A stretch of 23,071 nucleotides of DNA from a bacterium (GTDB taxonomy: Bacteria; UBA9089; CG2-30-40-21; SBAY01), in the NCBI GenBank assembly GCA_040757115.1, contig JBFLYA010000044.1, positions 1 through 23,071 of the forward strand, given 5' to 3'. A program made the translations under genes and the position numbers. The notes under the pieces were generated by a model. That model saw nothing but the letters and a program-made list of their open reading frames with translations, did no database searches and was not told the origin of the DNA. Numbering within the stretch: position 1 is the first letter of the stretch; every line of letters starts with the position of its first letter. Positions 317 to 20,944 of this stretch are shown here, piece by piece.

Positions 317-3300
317 TTACCTGATGATGGCGAGCTTGCCTATCTTCTTTTTCCCATCGTCAGTAGTCAACACATAAATATACACACCACTATCTACCTT
401 CTTCCCATAATTATCCCGAACATCCCAAATCCAGGTGGCGCGTTTGCCTTCTTCGTCTCTGAGTAAACTACCTGAGATGTCGTAGATACGAATCTGGGTA
501 TTCTCTGGTAATCCCTCAAAAACGATATTTTCATCCCCGCGGCTTGGCTTGAACGGATTCGGATAGACCACCACCGCATCAAAACCCGCCGGTATCCCTT
601 CCCCAATCAAAATAAATGTCCCAAAATGCGGTATATTGCCATAGATAAAATTACTTCCGACTAAAACCTGTGCATTGGCTACCTCCACCCACTTCGATTC
701 AATTGATTCCTCATCCAGGATGTATAATTTCAATGTCTCCTCGGCTATATTCTTTGGTGGCTCAGGGTAATAAATCGTCACTCTGGTCGTTCGTGTCCCA
801 AAATCACCCTCTATCGGTTTTTTATCTCCATCTTTAGCTACTATGCGGATAATGGTGTCAGTTAGCAGACAAAATCCCGGGTTATAATGATTCATCCGCA
901 AATTCGCTATCTTAATCTCATCCTCATCCAGACCTGGTTTATCTATCTTTAGGTAATAATCTTTACTTACACTATGAGGCTTAATGTCTATCTTCAAGTC
1001 TCCCTCTTCAACCTTTACATTACTTGCGTCATCGTATAACACCGCAAAATTATTACTCTGAGACTCTATTACCTCGTCTCTAAGACTGATACGGACATCA
1101 GGTCCTGCCTTGTTAGTCTCAATCATTACTGTGCCGGTAGATATACCGTTTTTGAAGGTAATAAAGGCAGGTTTTATTTGACCAAAGTTAGTTGTAAGAG
1201 AACCTGTCTGGTTGTAATCACTTGCCAGATTGCCATACCTATCCCGGGCAGTTACTTTAATCCCAAACTTCGTGTTGATAATCTGATGGTTAATCGGGTC
1301 AAACTCAAATCGACTCACTCTACCAGACCTGACAGTTATGCTGGCTGTTCCAATTATCTCCTCTGAAAATCGGGACTCGGGGCTCGGGGCTCGGGACTCG
1401 GGACTCGGGACTCGGGGCTCGGGGAGATTATTTCTTTCCTCCCCCTTAATCCACATCCCGAGGGGGACAGATTCATTTGTGAGATGAAGGTTCATAACCG
1501 CTTCTCTTACTGTGTAGGTAAGTGTTCCTTTGCCTGGTTTTGTCCCGGCGACAAAAGTCGTGTTTGTGCCAATAACATTGGTCAACTCGCCCAGTTCACT
1601 TCCTACTTCCCATTTCCCATTTCCTACCTCTTTCTCATTCCCATATTTGTCATATCCATAAGCGGTAAATGTGGAAGTCCCGGCTACCTCTACCACCACC
1701 TCTTTGGGCAGAATGGTTATCTTTGCCAGTTTTCCTGGCACAATTCGGATATTAGCCGTGCCAATGACCCCTTCTGCACTTACCTTGATGATGCCTGATG
1801 TTGCCTTTGTGCCAGCAGTAAATGTGGTCATTGTGCCGAAAATATTACTCAAACTCCCTATCTCATTTCCTACTTCCCATTTCCCATTTCCCACTTCTTT
1901 CTCATTCCCATAACCATCATAGCCTCTGGTGGTGAATAATTGTGATTCATCAGGCAGCAAGGTTACACTTCCTGGTATAACCTCAATCAAGGAAAGACTG
2001 CCAGCCTGGACTAAAAATGGATTGCTTGTGCCTGTTTTTCCCTGGTAACCTGCCGTAATCGAGGTTGTACCTACTCTGGTGATAGAACCAATGCCATCCC
2101 AGATACCTGCCATAAAGTTGGTGGTTATCTTCGGATTCAAGGTCAGCGAGGTATCCTCTAACTGGACTTTATCACTAAAGTTAAGCATAGTGTTACCGTA
2201 AGAATCTTGTGCCATAATCTTGATGGGAAAATGGACACCCGCAAGACAATTGCTAATAGTCCCAATCAGGAAATGGTCAAGGCGGTTATGACTAACTAAG
2301 AATGGATTGCTTGTGCCTGTTTTTCCCTGGTAACCTGCAGTAATCGCGGTTGTGCCTGCTCTGGTAATAGAACCAATGCCAGCCCAGATACCTGCCATAA
2401 AGTTGGTGGTTATCTTCGGATTTAAGCTCAGCGAGCTATCCTCTAACTGGACTTTATCACTAAAGTTAAGCACCGTGTTACCATAGGCATCCCGGGCTAT
2501 AATGGTTATGGGAAAAGCAACGCCTGCAACACAATTGCTCATAGTCCCAATCAGGAAATGGGCAAGGGTGTTATGGCTAACTAAGAAGGGATTGCTTGTG
2601 CCTGTCTTTCCCTGGTAACTTGCCGTAATCGCACTCGTGCCTGCTCTGGTAATAGAGCCAATACTATCCCAGATACCTGCCATAAAGTTGGTGGTTATCT
2701 TTGGATTCAATGTCAGGCTGGTATCTTCCAATTGCACCTTATCGGTAAAGCTGGTTACTGTATTGTTGTAGGCATCTTTGGCGGTGATAACAACAAAGAA
2801 GTCTATCCCGGCAGTTTGATTGGTGATAGTGCCGATTAAGAAATGGTTGAGGCTACTGGGGATGATAAAGAAGGGATTGCTTGTGCCTGTTTTCCCCTGG
2901 TAACTTGCCGTAATCGCGGTCGTGCCTGCTCTGGTGATACTAACTGTGCCATCCCAGATGCCCAGGCTAAAGTTTGTGGTTTTAGTCGGGCTAATGGTGC
3001 GGCTGGTATCAGTTAGTGTGGCGGATGAGTTAAACATATCAGCGATATTTCTCCAGCGGTCATAGGCCTTGATGCTGACTGGAAAACTAATACCTGCGGT
3101 TTGAGTAGTTATGCTGCTAATGACAAAATACTCTACCTCGCCGCCACAGACCCAGAAGGGGTTACTTGTGCCTCGAATATCCCCATAAATGGCAGTAATA
3201 CTGGTAGTCCCTCTTACTGTGATAGAGCCAAATCCATCCCACATACCATTTATAAATGAAGTAGTTTGAGTAGGTTTAAGGCTGTTACTTAAGTCAATTA

Positions 3301-6300
3301 GCGTTACTGTCATGGTAAAAGGAATAGGATTTTCGTAGGCATCTTTGGCGGTGATTTTAATCGGGAAATTCATCCCCGCAGTCTGGGTAGCAATAGTATC
3401 GAAGGTGAACATTGCTAATTCGCCAGAAGTGGTAGTAATAGTGCCGGAGGTAGCAGGTGGTAGAGTAGATAGGAGTTTTATCCTGACTTTATCATTGGCA
3501 TTAGGTGAAACCCAGTAGGTAATCGTGCCTATCTGACCTGCAGAATTAGTAGTTACCGTAGTGGTAGATAATATGCCTTCTGTGCCTGTGATAACCTCTA
3601 TCCCTATATTGCAGATTATCCCTGATGAACCCACCGGATTATTGTAGGCATCAGTCAATTGGGCAGTGACGCTTACTGAACCCCCTGCCAGGATGTAGAT
3701 AGGATTTTCAGGATAGACGATGAATTTAAATGGCTCGCCTGCTCGGACATAAAAAGGATTGCTTGTGCCTGTTTTACTCTGGTAGCCTGCCGTAATCGCG
3801 GTTGTGCCTGCTCTGGTGATGCTAACTGTGCCATCCCAGATGCCACCAGTGAAGTTAGAGGTGATAGTAGGTTGGATGGTTTGAGAAAGGTCAGAGAGTC
3901 CGACTTTATCTTTGAAATTTAGCACTACATCACCAAATTCATCATAAGCAGTCATCTTTATTTGAAATCCTGTCCCTGCTATTTGAGGAGAGGAAATTGT
4001 GCCAAACAGAAAATATTCTACGCCAGTGATATAGAAGGACGCCCTTGCCTCATATCCTGAAATAAGTCCATAGGCAGTAATGGTTATCGTGCCAAATCCC
4101 TGGTCATTAACGGTAAAGGTAGTAGTAAAAGAACCACCAACAGAGGTAGATAGAGCAATAGTGGTAGTATTGCCAAATTCTATGCGAATGGTTTCTGTTG
4201 GGTAGAAATTGCACCCGCTAATAGTCACCCGCTTACCTACTACACCTCTTGTAGGTGAAATCCGGGTAATCATTGCTGGAGAGAGTGTTTTCTCAACCGC
4301 GATATTGGAAAGTGGGGAGAGATTGAAGTCATCATCCCTGGCGCGAATACAAAAGTAGTAGGTGGTAGTTGGGCAGAGGTTAGTTACGGTAAAAGATTCA
4401 GGAGAGCCAGCATCTTTGGGAACAATAGTGGATGTAGATTTATTAGTCAGGTGCCAGTTTTGTGGGGTAATGGTAAAGGTAGCGTAGCGGATGTAGTAGC
4501 AGGTAGAAGAGCCTTTATCTTTGTCATCACCAGGTGCAGTCCAGTTCAACTCAATAGAGGTAGGTTTGGGATTAAGAGCCTTAAGGTCAGTTATGCGAGA
4601 AGGGGGGACAATATCTGTATTATAGCAATTAGTCCGGCGCATATCGTGATTTGCCATCGGCCATTCCAGTGCACCTGGCGTACAACTACCCCAGTAGTCC
4701 CAGGCATATACCTTACTTAATGCCCAACTAATCTCTTTGAATTCCTCTCCACCGCAGACTATTTCTATATCGCCATCTAAATCCATATCTCCAACTACAA
4801 AAGGTGATGTCCTTTTATCACCTGGTTTTAAAAACAGGTCTATCTGCTTACTCCCATCACTATTCCAGATAGTAACCGTTCCCTTCATATCATTCCTGCT
4901 TTCTATAATCTCTAAGGATTTATCCTCATCCACATCTGCAATTACTGGATAAGATGGTCCTCTTTGTTGTAGTCCTCCTCCTTTGGGCCAACCAGGTACA
5001 TCACTACCATCAGGATTTAATACATATATAGAATATATACAATCAATAATTATTTCCATTTCTTTATCATTGTCAATATCTCCAGAGGTAACTGAATATG
5101 GATAGTTATAATCCATTCCTCCTACCTGTTTCGGATAGCCGATAATATCTGTTCCATCAGGATTTAAGGCGTGCAAAAATATCTTTGGTGAATCTTTTGT
5201 CACAATGAGAATCTCTAATTCATCATCATTATCAATATTACCTATAGCCAATCCATTAGAAGATATATTCCCTGAGATACTCTTAGGCCATTGTCCAGGG
5301 ATTAAGTTACCTTCGCTATTAAAGACATATATCTTATCAGAAAGGACAATAATTTCAAGATTACCATCTCTATCCAAATCTGCTATCATCGGGTGATACT
5401 CACGACGGGGAAGGGCTATATCCTTAGGCCAGGCCCCTTTTACTATTTCTCCTGTATGATGGAAGGCATAGAATTTATTGTTCATCCCTATAACAATCTC
5501 TAAATCCCCATCTCCATCTATATCCCCAAGTGCAGAGGAAGTTGCATCTGTTCCTGATACTGGAAATCCGGGGAGATTACTACCATCAGACTTGAAGATG
5601 TATGAGCCAGCTATATCAGTTAATATAACCTCTAACCTGCTATCATTATCCACCTCGGCTAAAATAGGAGAACATGCTGGATGACCAGGAATTGTCTTAT
5701 TCCAATTATCCATGAATTTGCCATTATGATGCCAGATATACGCACCTTCTCCTGGAGAAGCGGCTACTTCTAAATCTCCATCCCCATTTATATCCCCTAT
5801 GGCAGGGGATGACTCTATACGCATGTTTAGTGGCTCAGGGATAACAGGATAGCCCTCTTGATAGAAATTTATCTCTATAGATTTACAGGTGGTATTATTG
5901 ATTGTTCCTGCTTCTAAAATGGTATTATAAGGGTTGACTACTACATAGATTGGGTATTCTCCTATGGGTAGGCTTTGTTTCCAATCTATGGCGGTTGTTT
6001 CTTCTTCTTTACCCTTGATAACAGGAATAGTATTAGAGCCTATTTCTATGCCACCCTCACCAGGTTTGCCAAGGAAGAATTTTACTAATACATCTTTTGC
6101 ATCTATATCCCCGAGATTATGGATAATTGTAGAGATATTTGTCTGCTGGCCAGGTTTAGGAGATTGAGGAATAAGCTTGATATCAATTGGCTCAACGCAT
6201 AACTCTGCCTTACCTGGTTCTAATGCCACCCTTGAAATGGTCACTGCAGGGTCACCTAATAAATTGAACTCATTGTACCAGGTTTGAATATATGGATTCA

Positions 6301-8209
6301 TAAGTATAAGTTCTCCTATGGAAAATTCAGAGGATTGAAATTCACCGATAAATTGTAATGCCTTTATTATGTGTGGGTTACCAATGCCTGTCCTAGAAGA
6401 AGCGCCCCAATAGGCGATAGCACCACCTCCCTCTTTCTTCACAAAAGCCTCACCTATACAATTATCAAGTGGCTCTCCATAATCCCATAAGAAATCACCT
6501 GTTTCACAAGTATCAGCAAAGATTACCGGTAATTTATCTCCATTAGAAAGTTCATTGACATGGTAATAACTAAAACCATTCCCCTGAAGTATCCAGAGAG
6601 GCTGACTTCCGTGACCAGAATAGGTAACCAGAAGTTTTCCCGCATTGATAGCGTCAGATACCATATCTGGGCCAACATTCTGATTTCCTCCTAATCTAAT
6701 AGATGTAAATCCTACTGGCAAGAGATAATTATCTATTATGGGAGTAAAATCAACGCCATTTGAACCTTCTACAAACAAGAGGGTATTGTGCCATTCGCCT
6801 AAAACAGAGGTGCTTTCATAGCGGATTATCTTATCCACCATTGTTTTGGCATCGGTACCGGTTTCTACCGGTAACCGACCAATCATTAGATCTACGGTCC
6901 AATACACATACTCAGGGGCAGGAAGCCCTTCGTCATTAATACAGACATACCAGGAATCAGCTACTGGATTTTCGCCAGTAAAGACTTGATGAATTTCGCT
7001 AACGGGTTTACAAGGGATATAAGCGTCATATTTCTCTTCTCCATCGCCAAAGAGTAACACAAACCCAGGATGGTCATCCGCCATAGATGGGGCAGACCAA
7101 TTATTATAGACATATCGGATGAACTCCTTAATAGACGATGTAGGTGTGGCCATTGGGAATTCGTTATATATATCAGCAGTATTAACCACGGCTACATCAA
7201 AACCATTATATTGAGCGCGATGAGTAGTCAGGCTTCCTACATCCAAATTATGATAATAAGCAGAAGCGGTAATAATCAAGTAATCGGCAGAATTATTGGG
7301 AGATTTAAGGATGCTGGGGTAGGTCACTGTGCCTATCCTTTTAGGTGCTGGCTCACGGGATAAAACAGGAGGTTTGTAATTCAAGACAGATTTGCTCAAT
7401 GCATTAGCAAAAGGGGCTGCCATCGGTGGTGATTTCAGTGAAATACCTCTCCCTTTCGTAGGGATGTATTTCACCTCTATCCTCAGGTTAGAATAAATCT
7501 GAAGCTGGTTCTTAGCAGGGTTAAACTGGATAGGATAAATCCTGAGATAAAGTATCCTCTGGTCGCGCAGATAACTGGTATGATAAGTGATAATCTTATC
7601 CTCTGCAGGATACCAGATGTCTTGCGTGTAGAATTCTTTATCAATACAAAACTCCTCGCCAATATATTCATAGCCGTCCGGGGTTTTCTTTATTACTTGC
7701 TTTGGTACAGGGGAGATTAAGTAATTTTGGATTGCGGATTGCGGATTGCGGATTGCGGATTGCGGAACTAAAAACAGATTAATCTCTACACCATCGGGGA
7801 TAGCGAGTTGAACTGAGATAACGGGTAGTTTGGGTTTTCCAACCTCCTGAGTAAAGCTATATTCGTAGCCGGGAATGGTTAGCAGCGAAAATCGGGACTC
7901 GGGACTCGGGACTCGGGACTCGGGGCTCGAGAGTTGGGATTCGGGACCTGGGGTTTGGGATTCGGGAGTTGTCCCCCGCTGGAGGGGGGTAGGGGGAGGA
8001 ATCTGTCCTCTGCCTTCTGTCTTCTCTTCCACATTCATGCCAAAGATAGTTGCTTCTAATACAATCCCAGCGCTATCTTCTTTTAGTATTTTAAACTCTG
8101 GTTTGGTAGGGACCTGGACACCGTTAAATGGCACCCAGGTGTTTGCGGCGTAAGTCAGAGAATGAATAGAAAGTAGAATGATGACGAAACTAATTATCTT
8201 TTCTTTCAT
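317..8209 (-). CDS. Giant secreted gingipain-like (C25) cysteine protease, copy 1
   Basis: 2,630 residues from the chosen ATG at 8209. An in-frame ATG at 8278 is also open, but the signal peptide (MKEKIISFVIILLSIHSLTYA) begins at 8209. Approximate order: propeptide 23-300; C25 catalytic domain 307-652 with GHG (His533) and a Cys568 motif (ADTCETGDF), 35 residues apart as in gingipains, ending LGDPAVTIS; CARDB-like 673-780; FG-GAP-like propeller 790-1160 with eight Asp-rich motifs such as DINGDGDLEV, probably Ca-binding; FN3 1200-1313; IPT/TIG-like 1310-1397; seven Ig/invasin-like modules 1397-2073; further Ig-like domains to about 2380; FlgD-like C-terminal domain 2547-2630 (YPNPFKPSRG...GKLAIIR). 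Likely exported, surface-anchored or released, and activated by propeptide removal. In-frame short tandem repeats interrupt the propeptide and one Ig-like region. No recognisable Shine-Dalgarno precedes the start. Confidence 0.9.
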   Translation of the reverse strand: MKEKIISFVIILLSIHSLTYAANTWVPFNGVQVPTKPEFKILKEDSAGIVLEATIFGMNVEEKTEGRGQIPPPTPLQRGTTPESQTPGPESQLSSPESRVPSPESRFSLLTIPGYEYSFTQEVGKPKLPVISVQLAIPDGVEINLFLVPQSAIRNPQSAIQNYLISPVPKQVIKKTPDGYEYIGEEFCIDKEFYTQDIWYPAEDKIITYHTSYLRDQRILYLRIYPIQFNPAKNQLQIYSNLRIEVKYIPTKGRGISLKSPPMAAPFANALSKSVLNYKPPVLSREPAPKRIGTVTYPSILKSPNNSADYLIITASAYYHNLDVGSLTTHRAQYNGFDVAVVNTADIYNEFPMATPTSSIKEFIRYVYNNWSAPSMADDHPGFVLLFGDGEEKYDAYIPCKPVSEIHQVFTGENPVADSWYVCINDEGLPAPEYVYWTVDLMIGRLPVETGTDAKTMVDKIIRYESTSVLGEWHNTLLFVEGSNGVDFTPIIDNYLLPVGFTSIRLGGNQNVGPDMVSDAINAGKLLVTYSGHGSQPLWILQGNGFSYYHVNELSNGDKLPVIFADTCETGDFLWDYGEPLDNCIGEAFVKKEGGGAIAYWGASSRTGIGNPHIIKALQFIGEFQSSEFSIGELILMNPYIQTWYNEFNLLGDPAVTISRVALEPGKAELCVEPIDIKLIPQSPKPGQQTNISTIIHNLGDIDAKDVLVKFFLGKPGEGGIEIGSNTIPVIKGKEEETTAIDWKQSLPIGEYPIYVVVNPYNTILEAGTINNTTCKSIEINFYQEGYPVIPEPLNMRIESSPAIGDINGDGDLEVAASPGEGAYIWHHNGKFMDNWNKTIPGHPACSPILAEVDNDSRLEVILTDIAGSYIFKSDGSNLPGFPVSGTDATSSALGDIDGDGDLEIVIGMNNKFYAFHHTGEIVKGAWPKDIALPRREYHPMIADLDRDGNLEIIVLSDKIYVFNSEGNLIPGQWPKSISGNISSNGLAIGNIDNDDELEILIVTKDSPKIFLHALNPDGTDIIGYPKQVGGMDYNYPYSVTSGDIDNDKEMEIIIDCIYSIYVLNPDGSDVPGWPKGGGLQQRGPSYPVIADVDEDKSLEIIESRNDMKGTVTIWNSDGSKQIDLFLKPGDKRTSPFVVGDMDLDGDIEIVCGGEEFKEISWALSKVYAWDYWGSCTPGALEWPMANHDMRRTNCYNTDIVPPSRITDLKALNPKPTSIELNWTAPGDDKDKGSSTCYYIRYATFTITPQNWHLTNKSTSTIVPKDAGSPESFTVTNLCPTTTYYFCIRARDDDFNLSPLSNIAVEKTLSPAMITRISPTRGVVGKRVTISGCNFYPTETIRIEFGNTTTIALSTSVGGSFTTTFTVNDQGFGTITITAYGLISGYEARASFYITGVEYFLFGTISSPQIAGTGFQIKMTAYDEFGDVVLNFKDKVGLSDLSQTIQPTITSNFTGGIWDGTVSITRAGTTAITAGYQSKTGTSNPFYVRAGEPFKFIVYPENPIYILAGGSVSVTAQLTDAYNNPVGSSGIICNIGIEVITGTEGILSTTTVTTNSAGQIGTITYWVSPNANDKVRIKLLSTLPPATSGTITTTSGELAMFTFDTIATQTAGMNFPIKITAKDAYENPIPFTMTVTLIDLSNSLKPTQTTSFINGMWDGFGSITVRGTTSITAIYGDIRGTSNPFWVCGGEVEYFVISSITTQTAGISFPVSIKAYDRWRNIADMFNSSATLTDTSRTISPTKTTNFSLGIWDGTVSITRAGTTAITASYQGKTGTSNPFFIIPSSLNHFLIGTITNQTAGIDFFVVITAKDAYNNTVTSFTDKVQLEDTSLTLNPKITTNFMAGIWDSIGSITRAGTSAITASYQGKTGTSNPFLVSHNTLAHFLIGTMSNCVAGVAFPITIIARDAYGNTVLNFSDKVQLEDSSLSLNPKITTNFMAGIWAGIGSITRAGTTAITAGYQGKTGTSNPFLVSHNRLDHFLIGTISNCLAGVHFPIKIMAQDSYGNTMLNFSDKVQLEDTSLTLNPKITTNFMAGIWDGIGSITRVGTTSITAGYQGKTGTSNPFLVQAGSLSLIEVIPGSVTLLPDESQLFTTRGYDGYGNEKEVGNGKWEVGNEIGSLSNIFGTMTTFTAGTKATSGIIKVSAEGVIGTANIRIVPGKLAKITILPKEVVVEVAGTSTFTAYGYDKYGNEKEVGNGKWEVGSELGELTNVIGTNTTFVAGTKPGKGTLTYTVREAVMNLHLTNESVPLGMWIKGEERNNLPEPRVPSPESRAPSPESRFSEEIIGTASITVRSGRVSRFEFDPINHQIINTKFGIKVTARDRYGNLASDYNQTGSLTTNFGQIKPAFITFKNGISTGTVMIETNKAGPDVRISLRDEVIESQSNNFAVLYDDASNVKVEEGDLKIDIKPHSVSKDYYLKIDKPGLDEDEIKIANLRMNHYNPGFCLLTDTIIRIVAKDGDKKPIEGDFGTRTTRVTIYYPEPPKNIAEETLKLYILDEESIESKWVEVANAQVLVGSNFIYGNIPHFGTFILIGEGIPAGFDAVVVYPNPFKPSRGDENIVFEGLPENTQIRIYDISGSLLRDEEGKRATWIWDVRDNYGKKVDSGVYIYVLTTDDGKKKIGKLAIIR
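1372..1420. repeat. Heptanucleotide array, 7 x GGGRCTC, inside protease 1
   Basis: Seven contiguous 7-bp units (GGGACTC or GGGGCTC) run 1372-1420. On the coding strand they encode SPESR-like residues. The array lies in an extra stretch between Ig-like domains that is absent from the paralogue. Its left junction, GAAAATCGGGACTC (1365-1378), is identical to that of the array at 7887-7900, suggesting a mobile or copied element. Confidence 0.9.
1600..1627. repeat. Heptanucleotide array TTCCYAY x4 in an Ig-like domain of protease 1
   Basis: Four 7-bp units run 1600-1627. A sister array of four units is at 1867-1894 in the preceding Ig-like domain. Both encode the KEVGNGKWEVG stretch. The paralogue has both arrays at equivalent positions (13053-13080 and 13320-13347), so these arrays predate the module duplication. 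Confidence 0.85.
1867..1894. repeat. Heptanucleotide array TTCCYAY x4, second site in protease 1
   Basis: Units are TTCCTAC, TTCCCAT, TTCCCAT and TTCCCAC. They encode a Gly/Lys/Trp/Glu-rich loop in the first of two adjacent Ig-like domains. The phase is kept over four units. Confidence 0.85.
2021..2875. repeat. Three 285-bp tandem repeats encoding 95-aa Ig/invasin-like modules
   Basis: The anchor ATTGCTTGTG recurs at 2021, 2306, 2591 and 2876, an exact 285-bp period (95 codons). Each module ends in KTGTSNPFLV or a close variant and contains GSITRAGT. More diverged modules of the same family continue towards 4020. Extended, stalk-like or adhesive roles are usual for such stacks; that role is inference here. 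Confidence 0.92.
7729..7763. repeat. Heptanucleotide array (GGATTGC)x5 in the protease 1 propeptide
   Basis: Five perfect 7-bp units, coding for PQSAIRNPQSAIQN-like residues just before the conserved PVPKQV motif. The paralogue carries a different, octanucleotide array (19330-19361) at the equivalent position. Because 7 is not a multiple of 3, gain or loss of one unit would shift the frame. Confidence 0.9.
7894..7970. repeat. Heptanucleotide array of 11 units (GGGACTC and variants) in the protease 1 propeptide
   Basis: Four perfect GGGACTC units (7894-7921) are followed by seven degenerate ones (GGGGCTC, GAGAGTT, GGGATTC, GGGACCT, GGGGTTT, GGGATTC, GGGAGTT) to 7970. It encodes a Pro/Ser/Glu-rich stretch between the mature N-terminus and the conserved YSFTQEVGKPKLPVI segment. 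The paralogue has a different heptanucleotide array here (19513-19540). Confidence 0.9.
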
Positions 8210-8216
8210 ATCATAA

Positions 8217-8245
8217 ATTATAACACAAAATTCATTATAATACAA
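8217..8245 (-). promoter_or_regulatory. Sigma70-type promoter for protease 1, placed for a leaderless transcript
   Basis: Reading leftward, TTGTAT (8240-8245) is followed by 17 bp and then TATAAT (8217-8222), only 7 bp before the ATG at 8209. A start 7-8 nt beyond the -10 box would fall on or next to the first codon. There is no Shine-Dalgarno motif before this ATG, unlike the small secreted and PorV-like genes. Confidence 0.55.
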
Positions 8246-8254
8246 GTAATTATT

Positions 8255-8611
8255 GTAACTATTCACCACGAAGGACACGAAGAAAATTATAAGACATATC
8301 TTTTCGACCTGTGAAATAGGTTTAAATAAAATGCAAGAAACAGCGAAATACTACAAACAGATTGCTCCTACGGAGCTTTATTCATATTAGCTCCAGAGGA
8401 GCGATATGTTTGTAGAAAAATTATTTCCCTCATAACAAATTAGCTCCATCGGAGCGAGCTGTTTATTCTTTTTCTCACCCTAATTGGGGGATATTTGTAG
8501 CCCTATTTCACAGGTTGAAAAAAATTTGTAGTTATTGTCAGACACTACCGAAAATTACAAGACATTAAATTCCATTTCGTGTCCTTCGTGTTCTTCGTGG
8601 TGAATAGTTAC
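8255..8611. repeat. Three-level nested inverted repeats between protease 1 and small secreted gene 1
   Basis: Outer arms GTAACTATTCACCACGAAG (8255-8273) and their perfect complement (8593-8611) enclose middle arms ACCTGTGAAATAGG (8307-8320) / 8502-8515, which enclose inner arms CTACAAACA (8351-8359) / 8407-8415. Three small GCTCC-N3-GGAGC hairpins lie inside (8364-8376, 8390-8402, 8443-8455). No open reading frame of note is present. The arrangement looks like successive insertions of different palindromic elements into one another. Confidence 0.85.
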
Positions 8612-8652
8612 GAAAAAGGAAAATAGAATAGCAGAACGATTATCAAAAAGGA

Positions 8653-8688
8653 AAGAGAGACCCATCCCTTTCCGAACAGGTCTCTCTT
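8653..8688 (-). terminator. Rho-independent terminator after small secreted gene 1
   Basis: A perfect 10-bp stem, AAGAGAGACC (8653-8662) with GGTCTCTCTT (8679-8688), followed on the minus strand by a T-rich run (TCCTTTTTG). It lies about 40 bp past the stop of the gene at 8728-9369 and would separate it from the protease gene downstream. Confidence 0.8.
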
Positions 8689-8727
8689 CATTCATTCTAC
8701 ATCGCTACTCCTATAACTTTGATACAC

Positions 8728-9369
8728 CTATGGTGTCCTTACACGGAAATCGAGGTAGAATTCATCCTTGTATTCGGGGCCTGCTGGAGTATCCTGTTTT
8801 GGTGTAACCCTTGCCCATAGATCCTGATTATAGTTTACAGGGGAACCATTGACGATTGAAATTGGAGTGTTTGGGAAATTGCCATTGAAGGCAGGTGCAA
8901 GTGTAAACGAACCTGGCTTTGGGTGTCCAGCACCTGGTGTTACCAACGCATAGTATGTTGTGATAGTCGCTCCATCAGATCTCGCTATATGGTCACAACC
9001 TGACGCTGCTATTTCCAGCTGATATGTCGACCCGGGAGCTATTGCCCAGGCCCAGATATTCGTCCACATAATCATATAATCATTTTCACCTGGGATAGAT
9101 TCCCATACCAGGTGGTCATCGTCAATATCTACAATTATGTATGGTTCCTTACCGTAGTAAAAAGCATGGGTCATAGTAGCTGTTACGCGTGTTGATGTGC
9201 CTGCATAAGTAAATTTTGTGTTCACTCCTGTCCCCCAGGCGTAGTCAGTAGCAGGTTTATCAGTCTGCGTAAAATGAGCTGTAGTATCTTCTGCGTTTGC
9301 AGTAGTTGTATATCCGCCGACGATGAGTAACGCGAGTGTAATTAGACTGAGTGTAATTATCTTCTTCAT
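8728..9369 (-). CDS. Small secreted protein of unknown function, copy 1
   Basis: 213 residues with a clear signal peptide (MKKIITLSLITLALLIVGGYTTTANA). The start at 9369 has a strong Shine-Dalgarno (AGGAGGTGA) a few bases upstream. I do not recognise the family. The paralogue at 20175-20831 has the same layout, and roughly half the residues match by eye. Shared blocks are VDIDDDHL, NDYMI-WTNI, SGCDH (the Cys is conserved), TTYYA, GSFTLAPAFNG and YNQDLWAR. The composition, rich in Thr, Tyr, Asp and Gly, suggests a beta-rich extracellular fold. It sits between PorV-like and giant protease genes in both units and has its own terminator, which hints at high expression and a partner or substrate role. 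That role is inference. Confidence 0.85.
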   Translation of the reverse strand: MKKIITLSLITLALLIVGGYTTTANAEDTTAHFTQTDKPATDYAWGTGVNTKFTYAGTSTRVTATMTHAFYYGKEPYIIVDIDDDHLVWESIPGENDYMIMWTNIWAWAIAPGSTYQLEIAASGCDHIARSDGATITTYYALVTPGAGHPKPGSFTLAPAFNGNFPNTPISIVNGSPVNYNQDLWARVTPKQDTPAGPEYKDEFYLDFRVRTP

Positions 9370-11699: not shown

Positions 11700-11917
11700 G
11701 GACGCAGATTTTCGCAGATTATCAGGATTAAAATTAAAATAAATATAATTTTTTCTATCTGTAGTGAGCATCTTTAGATGCGCTCCCCTTTTTAATGCAA
11801 ACTTTCCATGAAACTACATTTCTATCCATGAAACGGGTCTAAAGACCCTCACTACATTTCTATCCATGAAACGGGTCTAAAGACCCTCACTACATTTCCT
11901 TACCTACATTTCCTTAC
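11700..11917. repeat. Half GGACGCAGAT element joined to GTAGTGAG/GGTCTAAAGACC repeats
   Basis: 11700-11755 matches 93-148 of unit 1 and then diverges abruptly. The rest holds a small hairpin (GCATCT-TT-AGATGC near 11769-11782), two 38-bp tandem units (11814-11851 and 11852-11889) each with GGTCTAAAGACC, and two 14-bp units CTACATTTCCTTAC (11890-11903, 11904-11917). GTAGTGAG at 11761-11768 is inverted at 11848-11855 and 11886-11893. The TTA that is the protease stop codon (11914-11916) lies in the last 14-bp unit. Confidence 0.8.
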
Positions 11918-14900
11918 CTGATAATCGCAATCTTGCCTGTCTTCTTCTTCCCATCACCAGTGGTCAACACATAGATGTATACCCCACTATCTATCTTCTT
12001 CCCATAATTATTCCGAACATCCCAAATCCAGGTGGCGCGTTTGCCTTCTTCATCTTTGACTAAACTACCTGAGATGTCGTAGATGCGGATTTGGGTATCT
12101 TCTGGTAACCCTTCAAAAACGATATTTTCATCCCCGCGGCTGGGCTTGAACGGATTCGGATAGACCACAACCCCATCAAAACCCGCCGCTATCCCTTCCC
12201 CAATCAAGATAAATGTCCCAAAATGCGGGACATCGCCATAGACAAAATTATTTCCGACTAAGACCTGTGCATTGGCTACCTCCACCCACCTCGATTCAAT
12301 TGATTCCTCATCCAGAATGTATAATTTCAATGTCTCCTCGGCTACATTCTTGGGTGGCTGATGGTAATAAATTATCATTCTGGTCGTTCGTGTCCCAAAA
12401 TCACCTTCTATCGGTCTCTTATCCCCATCTTTAGCTACTATGCGGATAATGGTGTCAGTTAGCAGACAAAATCCCGGGTTATAATGATTCATCCGCAAAT
12501 TCGCTATCTTAATCTCATCCTCATCCAGACCTGGTTTATCTATCTTTAGGTAATAATCTTTACTTACACTATGAGACTTAATGTCTATCTTCAAGCCTCC
12601 CTCTTCAACCTTTACATTACTTGCGTCATCGTATAACACAGCAAAATCGTTACTTTGAGACTCTATGCTCTCGGCTCTAATACTAATATGGACATCAGGT
12701 GCGGCTCGGTTAGTCTCAATTGTTACCGTGCCTATCTCTATGCCGTTATAGAAGGTGATACGGGCAGGTTTTATCTGACCAAAGTTAGTTGTAAGAGAAC
12801 CAGTGTGGTTGTAATCACTTGCCAGATTGCCATACCTGTCCAGGGCAGTTACTTTAATGCCAAACTTCGTATTGATAATCTGATGGTTAATCGGGTCAAA
12901 GTCAAATCGATTCACTCTACCAGATCTGACAGTTATGCTGGCACTGCCTTGTATCTGTTCTACTCTGCAGGTAAGTATCCCTTCCCCTGACTTTGTCCCG
13001 GCGACAAAAGTCGTGTTTGTGCCAATAACATTGGTCAACTCGCCCAGTTCACTTCCTACTTCCCATTTCCCATTTCCTACCTCTTTCTCATTCCCATATT
13101 TGTCATATCCATAAGCGGTAAATGTGGAAGTCCCGGCTACCTCTACCACCACCTCTTTGGGCAGAATGGTTATCTTTGCCAGTTTTCCTGGCACAATTCG
13201 GATATTAGCCGTGCCAATAACTTCTTCTGCACTTACCTTGATGATGCCTGATGCCGCCTTTGTGCCAGCAGTAAATGTGGTCATTGTGCCGAAAATATTA
13301 CTCAAATTCCCTATCTCATTTCCCACTTCCCATTTCCCATTTTCTACTTCTTTCTCATTCCCATTGCCATCATAGCCTCTGCTGGTGAATAATTGTGATT
13401 CATCAGGCATCAATGTTACACTTTCTGGCATAACCTCAATCAAGGAAAGACTGCCAGCCTGAACTAAAAATGGATTGCTTGTGCCTGTTTTTCCCTGGTA
13501 TCCTGCCGTAATCGCGCTCGTGCCTGTTCTGGTAATAGAGCCGATGCCAGCCCAGATACCTGCCACAAAGCTGGTGGTTAGCTTCGGATTTAAGCTCAGC
13601 GAGGTATCCTCTAACTGGACTTTATCACTAAAGTTAAGCATAGTGTTACCGTAAGAATCTTGTGCCATAATGGTGATGGGAAAAGGAATGCCCGCAAGAC
13701 AATTGCTAATAGTCCCAATCAGAAAATGGTCAAGGCGGTTATGGCTAACTAAAAAGGGATTACTTGTGCCTGTTTTTTCTTGGTAACCTGCCGTAATCGC
13801 GGTCGTGCCTGCTCTGGTGATAGAGCCAATGCCATCCCAGATACCTGCCACAAAGTTGGTGGTTAACTTTGGATTCAAGCTCAGCGAGGTATCCTCTAAC
13901 TGGACTTTATCACTAAAGTTAAGCATCGTGTTACCGTAAGAATCTTGTGCCATAATGGTTATGGGAAAAGGAACGCCTGCAACACAATTGCTAATAGTCC
14001 CAATCAGGAAATGGGCAAGGCTGTTATGGCTAACTAAAAAGGGATTGCTTGTGCCTGTTTTACCTTGATAGCCTGCCATAATCGCAGTAGTGCCTGCTCT
14101 GGTAATAGAGCCAATGCCATCCCAGATACCTGCCATAAAGTTGGTGGTTAGCTTTGGATTCAATGTCAGGCTGGTATCTTCCAATTGCACCTTATCGGTA
14201 AAGCTGGTTACCGTATTGTTGTAGGTATCTTTTGCAGTGATGACAACAGAGAAGTCTATCCCGGCAGTTTGATTGGTGATAGTGCCGATTAAGAAATGGT
14301 CGAGGCTACTGGGGATGATAAAGAAGGGATTGCTTGTGCCTGTTTTACCCTGGTAACTTGCCGTAATCGCGCTCGTGCCTGCTCTGGTGATACTAACTGT
14401 ACCATCCCAGATGCCCAGGCTAAAGTTTGTGGTTTTAGGCGGACTAATGGTGCGGCTGGTATCAGTTAGTGTGGCGGATGAGTTAAACATATCAGCGATA
14501 TTTCTCCAGCGGTCATAGGCATTGATGCTGACTGGGAAACTAATACCTGCGGTTTGAGTAGTTATGCTGCTAATGACAAAATACTCTACTTCACCCCCAC
14601 AGACCCAGAAGGTGTTACTTGTACCTCGAATATCCCCATAAATAACAGTAATACTGGTAGTGCCTCTTACGGTGATAGAGCCAGATCCATTCCACATACC
14701 ATCTATAAATGAAGTAGTCTGAGTAGGTTTAAGGCTGTTACTCAAGTCAATTAGAGTTACTGTCCTGGTAAAAGGAATAGGATTTTCGTAGGCATCTCTG
14801 GCGGTGATTTTAATCGGGAAATTCATCCCCGCAGTCTGGGTAGCAATAGTATCAAAGGTGAACATTGCTAATTCGCCAGAACTGGTAGTAATAGTGCCGG

Positions 14901-17900
14901 AGATAGCAGGTGGTAGAGTAGATAGGAGTTTTATCCTAACTTTATCGTTGGCATTAGGTGAAACCCAGTAGGTAATAGTGGCTATCTGACCGGTATTGGT
15001 AGTCGTAGTAGTGGTGGCGGATAGTGTTCCTGCTTTACCAGAAAGCACCACTACCTCTAAATTACAACTAATCCCTGCAGACCCAACCGCATTACCATAA
15101 ACATCGCTTAATTGGGCAGTGATGCTTACTGAACCACCCGCCAGGATGTAAACAGGATTTTCAGGATAGACGAGGAACTTAAATGGCTCGCCTGGCTGGA
15201 CATAAAATGGATTGCTTGTGCCTGTCTTACTCTGGTAACCTGCCGTAATTGCGGTTGTGCCTGCTCTGGTGATGCTAACTGTGCCATCCCAGATGCCACC
15301 AGTGAAGTTAGAGGTGATAGTAGGTTGGATGGTTTGAGAAAGGTCAGAGAGTCCAACTTTATCTTTGAAATTTAGCACTACATCACCAAATTCATCATAA
15401 GCAGTCATCTTTATTTGAAATCCTGTCCCTGCTATTTGGGGAGAGGAAATTGTGCCAAACAGGAAATATTCTACGCCAGTGATATAGAAGGACGCCCTTG
15501 CCTCATATCCTGAAATAAGTCCATAGGCAGTAATGGTTATCGTGCCAAATCCCTGGTCATTAACGGTAAAGGTAGTAGTAAAAGAACCGCCAACACAGGT
15601 AGATAGAGCAATAGTGGTAGTATTGCCAAATTCTATGCGAATGGTTTCTGTCGGGTAGAAATTGCACCCGCTAATAGTGACCTGCTTACCTACTACACCT
15701 CTTGTAGGTGAAACCAGGATAATCATCGCCGGTGAGAGTGTTGTCGCAAAGGTGATATTGGAAAGTGGGGAGAGATTGAAATCATCATCCCTGGCGCGAA
15801 TACAGAAGTAGTAGGTGGTAGTTGGGCAGAGGTTAGGGACGGTAAAAGATTCAGGAGAGCCAGCATCTTTGGGAACAATAGTGGATGTAGCTTTATTAGT
15901 CAAGTGCCAGTTTTGTGGGGTAATGGTGAAGGTAGCGCAGCGGATGTAGTAGCAGGTAGAAGAGCCTTTATCTTTGTCATCACCAGGTGCAGTCCAGGTT
16001 AAGGAAATAGAGGTAGGTTTGGGATTAAGAGCCTTAAGGTCAGTTATGCGAGAAGGGGGAACAATATCTGTATTATAGCAATTAGTCCGCCTTATGTCGT
16101 GATTTGCCATCGGCCATTCCAACGCACCCTTTTCACATTTACCTTCATAGTCCCAGATGTAGACTTTAGGTATTGCCCAGGCAATATGCATAAATTCTTC
16201 ACCTGCACAAATTACCTCTACATCCCCATCTAAATCAATATCGGCGATGACAAGAGGTGAAGTTCTTCTATCCTCTGGTTTCATAAGTAGATTTAACTTC
16301 TGCGTCCCATCGTTATTCCAGATAGTTATAGTGCCCTTTTTCATATAATATATACTTTCTATAACCTCAAACTGATTATCATTATCCATATCTGAGATTA
16401 ATGGATGAGATGGACCTCTTTGACTACCCGCTTTAGGCCAACCAGTTACATTACTCCCATCATGATTTAAGACATACAGGTAGTTACAAGTATCAATAAT
16501 CACCTCCATATCTCCATTATTATCGATATCTCCAAGAATAACTGAGTATGAGACATTGTAATCATTACCTCCTACTTGTTTTGGATAACCAAATACATCA
16601 CTACCATCGTAATTTAAGGCGTATAAAAATATCTTTGGTGACTGGTATGAGGCAATGATAATCTCTAACTCATCGTCACTATCAATATTTCCAACAGCAA
16701 ATACATCAGGAAAACCATCTGGATAGGGTATAGTTTTGGGCCATTGACCCGGAGCTAATTCACCATCACTTTGTAAAACATAGACCTTACCTTCTGTTGA
16801 GAAGGCTATAATCTCATGATTTCCATCTTTATCAATATCAGCAATAATAGGGTGATAGCCACCTTGTAGATTTATCTCTTTAGGCCAATCCCCATCTACT
16901 AATGTTCCGTTATGATGCCAGGTATAGAGCTTATCGTTCATCTCCACCACAATCTCAAGGTCTCCATCATTATCTATATCACCTATGGCAGGTGAGTTTG
17001 AATTCGTCCCCTCCTTAGGAAAACCAGGTACATTGCTACCATCATGATTCAGGACATAAAACCTTTTTCTACCACTTATGATAATCTCCAACTTATTATC
17101 ATTATCCATATCAGCTAAGATAGGTGTCCCTGCTATATCACCATTTTCTTCTACTGTTATTAGTTTAGGCCAGTTATCTACAAAGTCACCATTATGATGC
17201 CAGATATATAGATAATTCCCAGTAACTGCACTTACGACCTCTAAATCCCCATCACCATCTATATCTCCCACTGCTGGTGATACTTGTATCCTAAATGAAA
17301 GAGGTTGAGGTATTTTAGTCCAGCCCTGCTGATAGATATTCACCTCTATTGATTTATATGCAGTATTGTTAATAGTCTCTGCCTCTGGAATAGTATCATA
17401 AGGGTCTATGACTACATAAATCTTATACTCACCTATTGGTAAATCAGGAATCCAGTTTATCTCTGTTGTTTCTCTTCCTTTAGCATAAATTGTAGTTATT
17501 GTCTTAGACCCTATCTCTACACCATTTACTGGGTCTCCAAGGAAGAATTTAATCAATACATCTGCTGCATCTGTATCACCAAGATTATGAATAATGGCAG
17601 AGATTTTTGTTTTTTCATTTGGTCGTGGGAAGTTAGGATTAAAATTAATATCAATTGGTTCAATCTCTAATTCTGGCTTATTTTGTTCTAATCCTGCCCT
17701 TGAAATAGTCAATGCTGGGTCTCCTAACATATTCCATTCATGCTGCCAGAGGTAATTATATGAATTAAGTGTTAATTCACCGAGAGAGAAACTGTTATAA
17801 CTATACTCTGCCATAAATTGATATGCCTTTATAGGATAAATAATACCATCAGTTGTTCCTGCAGATGCTCCCCAATAAGCAATAGCACCACCATTTTCTT

Positions 17901-19725
17901 TCTTAAGGAAAGCCTCTGCAAGACAATCAGGAAACTTACTGTCATCCCATAAAAAATCAGCCGTATCACAAGCAGCGCCAAAGACAACAGGCAATTTATC
18001 ACTATTATAAAGGCTATTTACCTGTCTAACTGAAAACGGTGATTCCGTATTCATCGCCCACCCTAAAGGATGTCCATGTCCATTATAGGTTACTAATAAG
18101 TGACCATCATTAATTGCTTCAACAACTATTCCACCTGTACCTGTTTCTTCGATCTTAGTTACTTCAAACCCCCCAGGTAAGAGATAATAATTTATTAAGG
18201 CATCAAAGTCACCACCAAAACCTTTTCCATCTACCATTAAAACTTTATTCCGCCACTTTCCTGGTATAGGATTTTTTTCATATTCGATTATCTTGTTAAC
18301 CATCACCTTTGTGTCTGTTCCAGATTCTACAGGCAGTCGACCTATCATTATATCCATTGTCCAGTATTCCCAAGATAGACTTTCATCATTGATACAGACA
18401 TACCAAGTATCAGCTACTGGTTCACCTATATAGGGATATATCTCTCTAAGAAACTTTGGAGGTACATAGGAAAAATACTGTTTCTCACCATCTCCAAAGA
18501 TAACTACATAGCCAAGATGGTTATCTTCCATAGAAGGAGCAGACCAATTGTTATAGACATATTTGATAAAATCTTTGATAGAAGTAGTCGTTCCTTTCTC
18601 AGTAATAGGGAATTCGTTGTAGATAGCGGTGGTATTGACTATTGCGACATTGAAGCCGTTGTATTCTGCCCGATGCTCGGCTAATCTTCTTAAATCTTCG
18701 TTATTGTAGAATCCCTCAGAGGTAATAATCAGATAATCCGCAGAGTTTGCTGGGTCTTTCAGGTTGGTGATGTAGCTTAATGTTCCTGTTCTTTTAGTGG
18801 TAAGTGGTAAGTGGCGAGTGGTAAGTGGTTTGTAGTTTAAGAGTGTGTGTTTTAATACATTGGCAAAAGGTGAAGCCATCTCTGGTTGTTTTAGTGATAG
18901 AGGTACTCCCTTTTTACGCAGGTAGTTTATTTCTATCTTCAGGTTAGGATAGATTCTGAGTTCTTTTTTTGCAGGGTTGAATTGGATGGGATATATTTCT
19001 AACCTTAAGATGCGCTGGTCACGGATGTAGCCGATGGAAGCAATCTTACAAGGGTAATTGGGTAATTGGGTAATTGGGTAATTGTGCTTCGCAACACTCT
19101 TCGAATTGGGTAACTTCTTTGATTCTTCAGATTTTTCTCCCAGATAAATCTGGGAGTCCGGAGTCCTCAATTTATTGAGGGTTTCTCGATTCTTCAGTCC
19201 TTCAGTCTCCATAGGATACCAGATGTCCTGCTTGTAAAACTCTTCATCTATGAAAAATTCTTCAGCAACATATTTGTAGCCCTCTGGGGTGGTTTTTACT
19301 ACTTGCTTGGGGACAGGAAATATGACAATGGGTGAATGGGAGAATGGGTGAATGGGTGATGGGGAAGTAGAAGAGATTGAAATCTCTACGCCATCCGGGA
19401 TGGCAAGCATTAACTGGATTACGGGTAGTTTAGGTTTGCCGACTTCCTGAGTAAATCTGTATTCATGCCCTGGAATACTCAAAATCTGAAATGTCTCTGT
19501 TCCTTCACTCCGAGCTCCGAGCTCCAAGCTCCGAGCTTGCTTCACATTCACACCAAACACATTCGCTTCGAGCGTAATGCCTGAGCTATCATCCTTGACT
19601 ACCTCAATCTCTGGCGGAGTAGGAGAAGATACACCTTCTTTAAATGGCAGCCAGGTGCTTGCATAGGTGATACTTGAAAAGAGTATTAAGTTAATGCATG
19701 CAATAATTATCGTTTTATATATCAT
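11914..19725 (-). CDS. Giant secreted gingipain-like (C25) cysteine protease, copy 2
   Basis: 2,603 residues with signal peptide MIYKTIIIACINLILFSSITYA. Domain order matches copy 1: propeptide to ~325; C25 domain 329-667 with NGHGH (His550) and GAACDTADF (Cys586); CARDB-like 687-799; FG-GAP-like propeller 805-1176 with eight Asp-rich motifs (DIDGDGDLEV etc.); FN3 1217-1327; IPT-like 1327-1412; seven Ig/invasin-like modules 1412-2092; Ig-like domains to ~2360; FlgD-like C-terminal domain 2518-2603 ending GKIAIIR. The catalytic half is clearly diverged from copy 1, while the region from the FN3 domain to the C-terminus is nearly identical. The residues after the catalytic Cys and His differ between copies (CDTAD against CETGD; GHGHPLGW against GHGSQPLW), so substrate preference may differ. 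The propeptide has four in-frame short tandem arrays and a palindromic insert. No SD is evident before the ATG. Confidence 0.9.
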   Translation of the reverse strand: MIYKTIIIACINLILFSSITYASTWLPFKEGVSSPTPPEIEVVKDDSSGITLEANVFGVNVKQARSLELGARSEGTETFQILSIPGHEYRFTQEVGKPKLPVIQLMLAIPDGVEISISSTSPSPIHPFSHSPIVIFPVPKQVVKTTPEGYKYVAEEFFIDEEFYKQDIWYPMETEGLKNRETLNKLRTPDSQIYLGEKSEESKKLPNSKSVAKHNYPITQLPNYPCKIASIGYIRDQRILRLEIYPIQFNPAKKELRIYPNLKIEINYLRKKGVPLSLKQPEMASPFANVLKHTLLNYKPLTTRHLPLTTKRTGTLSYITNLKDPANSADYLIITSEGFYNNEDLRRLAEHRAEYNGFNVAIVNTTAIYNEFPITEKGTTTSIKDFIKYVYNNWSAPSMEDNHLGYVVIFGDGEKQYFSYVPPKFLREIYPYIGEPVADTWYVCINDESLSWEYWTMDIMIGRLPVESGTDTKVMVNKIIEYEKNPIPGKWRNKVLMVDGKGFGGDFDALINYYLLPGGFEVTKIEETGTGGIVVEAINDGHLLVTYNGHGHPLGWAMNTESPFSVRQVNSLYNSDKLPVVFGAACDTADFLWDDSKFPDCLAEAFLKKENGGAIAYWGASAGTTDGIIYPIKAYQFMAEYSYNSFSLGELTLNSYNYLWQHEWNMLGDPALTISRAGLEQNKPELEIEPIDINFNPNFPRPNEKTKISAIIHNLGDTDAADVLIKFFLGDPVNGVEIGSKTITTIYAKGRETTEINWIPDLPIGEYKIYVVIDPYDTIPEAETINNTAYKSIEVNIYQQGWTKIPQPLSFRIQVSPAVGDIDGDGDLEVVSAVTGNYLYIWHHNGDFVDNWPKLITVEENGDIAGTPILADMDNDNKLEIIISGRKRFYVLNHDGSNVPGFPKEGTNSNSPAIGDIDNDGDLEIVVEMNDKLYTWHHNGTLVDGDWPKEINLQGGYHPIIADIDKDGNHEIIAFSTEGKVYVLQSDGELAPGQWPKTIPYPDGFPDVFAVGNIDSDDELEIIIASYQSPKIFLYALNYDGSDVFGYPKQVGGNDYNVSYSVILGDIDNNGDMEVIIDTCNYLYVLNHDGSNVTGWPKAGSQRGPSHPLISDMDNDNQFEVIESIYYMKKGTITIWNNDGTQKLNLLMKPEDRRTSPLVIADIDLDGDVEVICAGEEFMHIAWAIPKVYIWDYEGKCEKGALEWPMANHDIRRTNCYNTDIVPPSRITDLKALNPKPTSISLTWTAPGDDKDKGSSTCYYIRCATFTITPQNWHLTNKATSTIVPKDAGSPESFTVPNLCPTTTYYFCIRARDDDFNLSPLSNITFATTLSPAMIILVSPTRGVVGKQVTISGCNFYPTETIRIEFGNTTTIALSTCVGGSFTTTFTVNDQGFGTITITAYGLISGYEARASFYITGVEYFLFGTISSPQIAGTGFQIKMTAYDEFGDVVLNFKDKVGLSDLSQTIQPTITSNFTGGIWDGTVSITRAGTTAITAGYQSKTGTSNPFYVQPGEPFKFLVYPENPVYILAGGSVSITAQLSDVYGNAVGSAGISCNLEVVVLSGKAGTLSATTTTTTNTGQIATITYWVSPNANDKVRIKLLSTLPPAISGTITTSSGELAMFTFDTIATQTAGMNFPIKITARDAYENPIPFTRTVTLIDLSNSLKPTQTTSFIDGMWNGSGSITVRGTTSITVIYGDIRGTSNTFWVCGGEVEYFVISSITTQTAGISFPVSINAYDRWRNIADMFNSSATLTDTSRTISPPKTTNFSLGIWDGTVSITRAGTSAITASYQGKTGTSNPFFIIPSSLDHFLIGTITNQTAGIDFSVVITAKDTYNNTVTSFTDKVQLEDTSLTLNPKLTTNFMAGIWDGIGSITRAGTTAIMAGYQGKTGTSNPFLVSHNSLAHFLIGTISNCVAGVPFPITIMAQDSYGNTMLNFSDKVQLEDTSLSLNPKLTTNFVAGIWDGIGSITRAGTTAITAGYQEKTGTSNPFLVSHNRLDHFLIGTISNCLAGIPFPITIMAQDSYGNTMLNFSDKVQLEDTSLSLNPKLTTSFVAGIWAGIGSITRTGTSAITAGYQGKTGTSNPFLVQAGSLSLIEVMPESVTLMPDESQLFTSRGYDGNGNEKEVENGKWEVGNEIGNLSNIFGTMTTFTAGTKAASGIIKVSAEEVIGTANIRIVPGKLAKITILPKEVVVEVAGTSTFTAYGYDKYGNEKEVGNGKWEVGSELGELTNVIGTNTTFVAGTKSGEGILTCRVEQIQGSASITVRSGRVNRFDFDPINHQIINTKFGIKVTALDRYGNLASDYNHTGSLTTNFGQIKPARITFYNGIEIGTVTIETNRAAPDVHISIRAESIESQSNDFAVLYDDASNVKVEEGGLKIDIKSHSVSKDYYLKIDKPGLDEDEIKIANLRMNHYNPGFCLLTDTIIRIVAKDGDKRPIEGDFGTRTTRMIIYYHQPPKNVAEETLKLYILDEESIESRWVEVANAQVLVGNNFVYGDVPHFGTFILIGEGIAAGFDGVVVYPNPFKPSRGDENIVFEGLPEDTQIRIYDISGSLVKDEEGKRATWIWDVRNNYGKKIDSGVYIYVLTTGDGKKKTGKIAIIR
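13053..13080. repeat. Heptanucleotide array TTCCYAY x4 in an Ig-like domain of protease 2
   Basis: Units TTCCTAC, TTCCCAT, TTCCCAT, TTCCTAC, equivalent to 1600-1627 in copy 1. A sister array is at 13320-13347 in the adjacent domain, equivalent to 1867-1894. Confidence 0.85.
13320..13347. repeat. Heptanucleotide array TTCCCAY/TTTCTAC, second site in protease 2
   Basis: Four 7-bp units; the last (TTTCTAC) has drifted from its counterpart in copy 1. The array is in frame and encodes a KEVENGKWEVG loop. Confidence 0.8.
13474..14328. repeat. Three 285-bp tandem repeats encoding 95-aa Ig/invasin-like modules (copy 2)
   Basis: The anchor ATTRCTTGTG recurs at 13474, 13759, 14044 and 14329, exactly 285 bp apart, as in copy 1. 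Some patches match a different-numbered module of copy 1 better than the positional equivalent, which suggests conversion between repeats. Confidence 0.92.
18796..18830. repeat. Heptanucleotide array (AGTGGTA)x5 in the protease 2 propeptide
   Basis: Five 7-bp units (AGTGGTA, AGTGGTA, AGTGGCG, AGTGGTA, AGTGGTT). They encode PLTTRHLPLTT just before the conserved KRTGT motif at the propeptide/catalytic-domain boundary. Copy 1 has an ordinary sequence (VLSREPAP) there. Confidence 0.88.
19052..19083. repeat. Octanucleotide array (GGGTAATT)x4 in the protease 2 propeptide
   Basis: Four perfect 8-bp units encoding PITQLPNYP-like residues, immediately before the conserved YIRDQRIL motif. It is part of a larger insert (about 19052-19210) missing from copy 1. 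Confidence 0.9.
19121..19206. repeat. Palindromic insert inside the protease 2 propeptide
   Basis: Two perfect hairpins: CTCCCAGAT-AA-ATCTGGGAG (19137-19156) and CCTCAAT-TT-ATTGAGG (19165-19180). The 10-bp direct repeat GATTCTTCAG occurs at 19121-19130 and 19188-19197. The frame stays open through the insert (ETEGLKNRETLNKLRTPDSQ...). Relatives of its GACTGAAGGACTGAA and CCCTCAATAAAT segments occur in the intergenic region at 19885-20075. Confidence 0.85.
19330..19361. repeat. Octanucleotide array (GGGTGAAT)x4 in the protease 2 propeptide
   Basis: Units GGGTGAAT, GGGAGAAT, GGGTGAAT, GGGTGATG. They encode SPSPIHPFSHSPI just before the conserved FPVPKQV motif, the same position as the (GGATTGC)5 array of copy 1. 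Confidence 0.88.
19513..19540. repeat. Heptanucleotide array (GAGCTCC)x4 in the protease 2 propeptide
   Basis: Units GAGCTCC, GAGCTCC, AAGCTCC, GAGCTTG. They encode ARSLELGARSEG at the position where copy 1 has the 11-unit GGGACTC array. Confidence 0.88.
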
Positions 19726-20913: not shown

Positions 20914-20944
20914 TTGAAGAGAGAAGTTTTTCGTAATTGTTCAC

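Follow-up and report, generated by a model that had tools for sequence, protein, structure and literature searches.

The window analyzed here is the whole 23,071-nucleotide stretch of DNA that constitutes contig 44 of a draft genome totaling 4.3 Mb and split into 462 contigs, and at positions 8255–8611 it carries a 357-bp nest of inverted repeats, located between two minus-strand genes. One of these neighbors encodes a giant peptidase with a C25 peptidase domain and a type IX sorting domain; its likely start codon lies near position 8209, ~46 bp from the nest, and the other is an ORF at 8728–9369 (minus strand), followed by a terminator-like hairpin at 8652–8689. The window contains two giant paralogous genes of this kind (317–8278 and 11,914–19,725), encoding C25 (gingipain-like) peptidases with FG-GAP, CARDB and type IX sorting domains; both have internal 285-bp repeats, and PorV-like genes are found nearby. 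Short units of 7 or 8 nt, among them TCGGGAC and GGATTGC, are also repeated in tandem within the two genes (at 1370–1423, 7729–7766, 7892–7947, 18,796–18,829, 19,052–19,084, 19,327–19,363 and 19,508–19,537), where a change of copy number would cause a frameshift.

An earlier reading of this stretch, made from the sequence only, had described perfect arms of 19, 14 and 9 bp nested one inside another, and we found all three pairs where it had placed them: the outermost at 8255–8273 and 8593–8611, the intermediate at 8307–8320 and 8502–8515, and the innermost at 8351–8359 and 8407–8415. When mismatches are allowed, the arms lengthen to 33 nt (91%), 20 nt (95%) and 27 nt (85%). The same reading had put three GCTCC-N3-GGAGC mini-hairpins at the center; the window indeed holds three, but the 9-bp arms enclose just two of them, the hairpin at 8443 lying outside these arms, yet within the 14-bp ones. 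These palindromes are genuine and greatly exceed what chance would produce: eight shuffled contigs contained no inverted repeat of such strength vs 62 in the same real contigs, and the GCTCC hairpin pattern occurs 22 + 25 times genome-wide as compared to 0 for the reversed pattern. Folding of the 357-nt RNA, which the sequence-only reading had proposed as a check, predicts a very stable structure on both strands, with an energy 17.9 SD below shuffles on the plus strand and 12.2 SD below on the minus strand.

Table 1. Features of the nest, with positions in the window, strand and the evidence for each
Feature	Position	Strand	Evidence
Outer element, left end GTAACTATTCA, putative IS66-type terminal inverted repeat	8255–8265	+	End counts; family members with 8-bp duplications
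Left phased arm CCACGAAGGACACGAA of putative GxxExxY cassette	8266–8281	+	Pairs with 8576–8600; also present beside the GxxExxY genes of L030 and L092
Putative relic of GxxExxY gene 3' end	8282–8304	-	Reads KRYVL-stop, arm next
Middle element, left flank TATCTTTT	8297–8304		Right flank AAAAAAAT differs; target duplication absent
Middle element, ends CGACCTGTGAAATAGG / CCTATTTCACAGGTTG	8305–8517	+	8-bp duplications in the family; copies without outer element
Putative deletion point	8343		Sister copies have ~70 extra bp with a fourth GCTCC hairpin
Putative inverted REP unit pair, CTACAAACA..GCTCC and GGAGC..TGTTTGTAG	8351–8415	+	Y1 gene between such units in L074
Putative REP hairpin 1, GCTCCTACGGAGC	8364–8376	+	Pattern count
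Putative REP hairpin 2, GCTCCAGAGGAGC	8390–8402	+	Pattern count
Putative REP hairpin 3, GCTCCATCGGAGC	8443–8455	+	Pattern count
A-tract AAAAAAAT, right flank of middle element	8518–8525		Other insertions at the same place in C71, C2 and G001:C106
Outer element, right half	8520–8611	+	Recurs at 95–98% identity
Right phased arm TTCGTGTCCTTCGTGTTCTTCGTGG of putative GxxExxY cassette	8576–8600	+	Pairing; arm comparison
Outer element, right end TGAATAGTTAC	8601–8611	-	End pattern match

The ends of the outer layer belong to a pattern (GTAACNNTTCA) that was counted 200 times in an 800-kb sample, taken from the 40 longest contigs (the first 20 kb of each), vs twice for its reverse. Of 161 convergent pairs of such GTAAC ends, 24 have exact direct repeats of 8 bp at their borders, whereas exact repeats of 9, 10 or 11 bp border none. 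Ends starting with GTAA and 8-bp target duplications are hallmarks of IS66 elements, and the genome contains a decayed IS66-family DDE transposase gene (PF03050), interrupted by stop codons, between GTAACCGTTCAGG ends (L117:893 and 2445); terminal inverted repeats with a GTAA start are thus common to the outer layer and to the element carrying this gene. Owing to the end pattern, the 8-bp duplications and the IS66 transposase gene between matching ends, the outer layer is best filed as an IS66-type MITE, despite the absence of a duplication at the window copy (left flank TAATTATT vs right flank GAAAAAGG), for which recombination or misassembly is suspected, so that its membership rests on its ends and its sister copies. 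Like IS66-type MITEs, the family of the outer layer has short terminal inverted repeats, 8-bp duplications and internal deletions, and the genome contains a transposase gene bounded by matching ends. Besides lacking the duplication, the window copy differs from such MITEs in its interior, which consists of the phased CACGAAG arms of a putative GxxExxY nuclease cassette and not of a shortened transposase gene. The mover of this layer would be the IS66 transposase, whose resident gene is the one broken by stops.

The link to GxxExxY comes from CACCACGAAGGACACGAAG, which stands inside the outer ends and whose neighbors in other copies encode fragments of GxxExxY (PF13366) proteins. At one locus of the genome (L030, G000:C254) the same ends, and arms nearly identical to those of the window, surround an internally deleted GxxExxY gene, the remnants of which start with KFDELSN and end in a stretch of 36 residues (not shown) before the stop codon; in the sister species (L092, G001) the gene is intact and ends in GIKRFVL-stop, with the arm directly after. 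The window relic retains only the last codons of such a gene, i.e., its stop-codon end. Given that the gene is nearly gone in the window and that intact and half-deleted relatives exist, we regard the window copy as a derivative of the cassette and not as a member of it. PF13366 matches number 78 in the window genome (27 of them strong) and 70 in the sister species (24 strong); in other relatives the strong matches range from 0 to 5.

The middle layer has CGACCTGTG-type ends, and 11 of the 26 CGACCTGTG...CACAGGTCG pairs are flanked by an exact 8-bp duplication, with no other length being consistent. Since ends of this type enclose GxxExxY genes elsewhere (L100, L104 and L106), the middle layer represents a separate element family. 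None of the ISL3 (PF01610), IS66 and Y1 loci examined as sources of a transposase partner is enclosed by such ends, and the sole case among them in which a gene adjoins one middle-type left end is the Y1 gene of L074. The assignment of a transposase to each layer is provisional.

This locus, L074, comes from a sister species of the same genus, and its Y1 transposase gene (ORF 1489–1950, 153 residues; PF01797, E 8e-23) is bordered on one side by the left end of the middle element together with GCTCC units, and on the other by GCTCC units in inverted orientation. In REP/REPtron systems, short hairpins tagged with GTAG/CTAC form inverted pairs that flank an IS200-like Y1 (RAYT) gene (PMC3733652, PMC2817692). 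The core of the nest is alike in having tagged, inverted hairpin pairs that elsewhere surround an IS200-like Y1 transposase gene. It differs in that its GTAG tag (CTACAAACA at 8351–8359 and TGTTTGTAG at 8407–8415) stands several nt off the hairpin and in that a distinct CGACCTGTG-ended element, of a family with 8-bp duplications, surrounds the cluster. By this comparison the core hairpins are predicted REPs of an IS200-like (RAYT) transposase, in the sense of the two studies just cited. Sister copies have one pair of hairpins facing another, four in all, and the window copy is short of one, at 8343. The window genome itself has six Y1 matches, none with an adjoining GCTCC unit, and the strict core pattern gave no match in named genomes. 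A truncated Y1 transposase gene beside related GTTCC hairpins, terminating at a GTAAGCGTTCAGG end, was seen in the same genome at L065 (G000:C14, ~690–920).

A whole-genome search with the complete structure (query 8240–8625) returned a single occurrence, and the whole 357 bp was absent from the relatives searched; a phage search with the nest gave no match. Its parts, on the other hand, are dispersed. The core with the middle arms occurs without the outer layer at C290, C153, C105 and C3 (89–96%), the right half of the outer element recurs at 10 or more places, the outer arms alone are found at many more, and outer-type elements without the middle layer are present as well. In G008, which represents another family of the same phylum, the middle element and core exist in many copies, with no match to the outer layer among the matches listed. 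The solo copies that the sequence-only reading had proposed to look for were thus found for each layer, and its view that different element families were inserted one into another stands, every layer existing without the others; the opposite outcome, a 357-bp structure recurring intact with no solo layers, was not encountered. With one copy only, a single recurring 357-bp element is ruled out. As the whole occurs once and each layer is found alone, we take the nest to be, very probably, composite: three mobile elements, non-autonomous and independent of each other, that inserted one after another into a single intergenic region.

Most likely, the outer IS66-type MITE with its GxxExxY arms would have landed first, and the REP-carrying middle element would then have landed in its A-tract, with the REP cluster inside the middle element being reduced at some stage from four hairpins to three. 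The A-tract position is occupied in other outer copies by two GTAAC elements with the duplication AAAAAATT (C71 and C2), and in G001:C106 by a second middle-type element. Verified insertion duplications are A/T-rich 8-mers (72% A+T). Nesting would follow from the abundance of such elements in non-coding DNA, which tolerates insertions and of which they form about one third, together with a preference for A/T-rich 8-bp targets. An empty site was not found in the sister species, where the neighboring genes are only ~66–71% identical and too divergent for this comparison. Two further nests were observed. One, in the sister species (L085, G001:C90, 1380–2400), is multi-level, has intact 8-bp duplications at two levels (CCTATTTC and GATAATTT) and is cleaner than that of the window. 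The other is a second composite within the window, at 20,933–21,146, with both end types, GTAATTGTTCACCGCAGAGACGCAGAG and then CCACCTGTGCGGTTA...TAATCGCACAGGTGG, around a AAATGTAAAATG palindrome; its arms interlock rather than nest cleanly, and its middle-type ends have no 8-bp duplication.

The window copy of the nest lacks an 8-bp duplication at either level, which counts against the composite reading, insertion at this very site being presumptive. Flanks that are discordant at both levels fit one crossover between dispersed copies, or misassembly, and either event may have cost the nest its duplications. The second possibility, namely that assembly of the draft fused distinct copies of a repeat, two in number, within the middle element, is the rival that survives best, and we consider it unlikely. 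Besides the discordant flanks, it is favored by a repeat copy number that is hard for short reads and by the fragmentation of the genome, in which a chimeric join within repeats is possible; against it, nests with clean duplications exist elsewhere (C71 and G001:C90), and a biological crossover would look identical.

A preferred insertion into the loops of existing palindromes had also been suggested, and, in its strongest form, palindromic elements would actively target loops or extruded cruciforms, so that the insertion mechanism itself makes nests. Such targeting would suit the several multi-level nests in two genomes (the one described here, 20,933–21,146 and G001:C90) and the one spot inside the outer element that was hit repeatedly. 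The 800-kb sample, with 154 kb of non-coding DNA, contains 208 non-redundant inverted-repeat elements, covering 52 kb, and 25 of the 194 elements of up to 700 bp lie inside another, vs 24.5 ± 4.5 under random sequential insertion into non-coding DNA. This shows no excess, in a crude test that takes ORFs as a proxy for coding, scores built-in architecture as nesting and misses arm-breaking insertions. A modest loop preference, up to about two-fold, would be compatible with the count, and none is needed. Furthermore, the reused landing site is an A-tract and the duplications are A/T-rich, which explains the repeated use of one place without loops. We find active loop targeting very improbable. 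Least credible of all is a single large element, an RNA or cruciform kept for function, for example in regulating the downstream peptidase gene: the strong predicted folding on both strands makes such a structure possible and its position just upstream of the likely peptidase start would suit it, but inverted repeats by nature fold strongly, so that the RNA or cruciform reading needs no explanation of its own, all Rfam families scored below threshold when compared with the nest, and the whole, found once and absent from the relatives searched, is built of layers that each belong to a dispersed repeat family.

In the window's genus, inverted repeats immediately flank 25 of 27 GxxExxY genes on either side (score of at least 12), as compared to 11 of 178 unrelated ORFs of the same genome (p = 8e-15). 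The arm repeats vary from gene to gene, match from left to right and consist of short units such as CGCAGAG, CACAAAG, ACACAGAT and CACGAATT, among others. Among 80 named relatives, drawn from archaea and many bacterial phyla, 54 also have matching inverted arms at a score of at least 15, vs 20 of 237 mixed flanks taken between loci; the scan used five closer GxxExxY proteins, a 15-protein alignment being too diverse, and these 80 are the best of at least 587 hits and were found with one GxxExxY subgroup, and so the armed proportion may differ family-wide. A control with neighboring ORFs at the named loci (31 of 46 vs 21 of 125, score 12) is weak because those flanks overlap the arms, and mismatched flanks and unrelated ORFs serve better. 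The proteins encoded at these loci (L165–L244, many bacterial phyla and archaea) are 58–72% identical to the query, and their N-termini often translate the repeat arm (e.g., MNHRDTEAQR), such that annotated starts may be wrong. In Sphingomonas parapaucimobilis the gene and its arms lie between fabD and fabG, where S. paeninsulae has a short spacer and no gene; likewise, Bacteroides finegoldii has a GxxExxY gene with arms after radA, and Phocaeicola massiliensis has none at that place. A plasmid search with one GxxExxY query found relatives in just 8 of 72,556 records.

The predicted structure of a GxxExxY protein (pLDDT 96.7) resembles PD-(D/E)XK nucleases. Its best structural match is SSO0001 (Z 9.6, 99 residues, rmsd 3.8), which we take to be a Cas4 protein, and Cas4, lambda exonuclease and Holliday junction resolvases are among the further matches. 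D67, E77, K79 and Q91 are invariant in 30 GxxExxY sequences; a sequence search against solved structures gave no match for the protein. Within the window's genus, high-identity copies end at GTAAC or CGACCTGTG ends, so that there the cassette travels as cargo.

From these comparisons the GxxExxY family looks like an unrecognized mobile nuclease cassette. More tentatively, it is possible that GxxExxY genes with their phased, inverted short-period arms form a distinct, undescribed class of mobile cassettes, in which the Cas4-like PD-(D/E)XK nuclease would move or copy the cassette by acting on the cassette's own arms, or on their junctions or cruciforms, and that many of the odd palindromes of short period in environmental genomes would be remnants of it that have lost the gene. 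A search of the open-access literature returned nothing on these arm sequences and no description of GxxExxY genes between matching inverted phased repeats, GxxExxY itself being almost absent from it. The nearest parallel comes from Candidatus Thiomargarita nelsonii, whose hupL MITE was put forward by the authors of that study as possibly the first MITE from a PD-(D/E)XK element (PMC4853749). There, too, gene-less repeats are tied to a PD-(D/E)XK nuclease gene, but the gene is of the PD-(D/E)XK_2 type (PF12784) and not PF13366, and phased inverted arms and a cross-phylum spread were not noticed in that account.

To summarize, the nest shows a pile-up of short palindromes for which random landing in tolerated DNA suffices, and its outer layer ties widespread short-period palindromes (CACGAAG, CACAGAG, CGCAGAG and so on) to one family of unknown function, GxxExxY. 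If GxxExxY genes are mobile, common and so far unexplained repeats of environmental genomes would gain an origin, and a small nuclease would gain a testable role.
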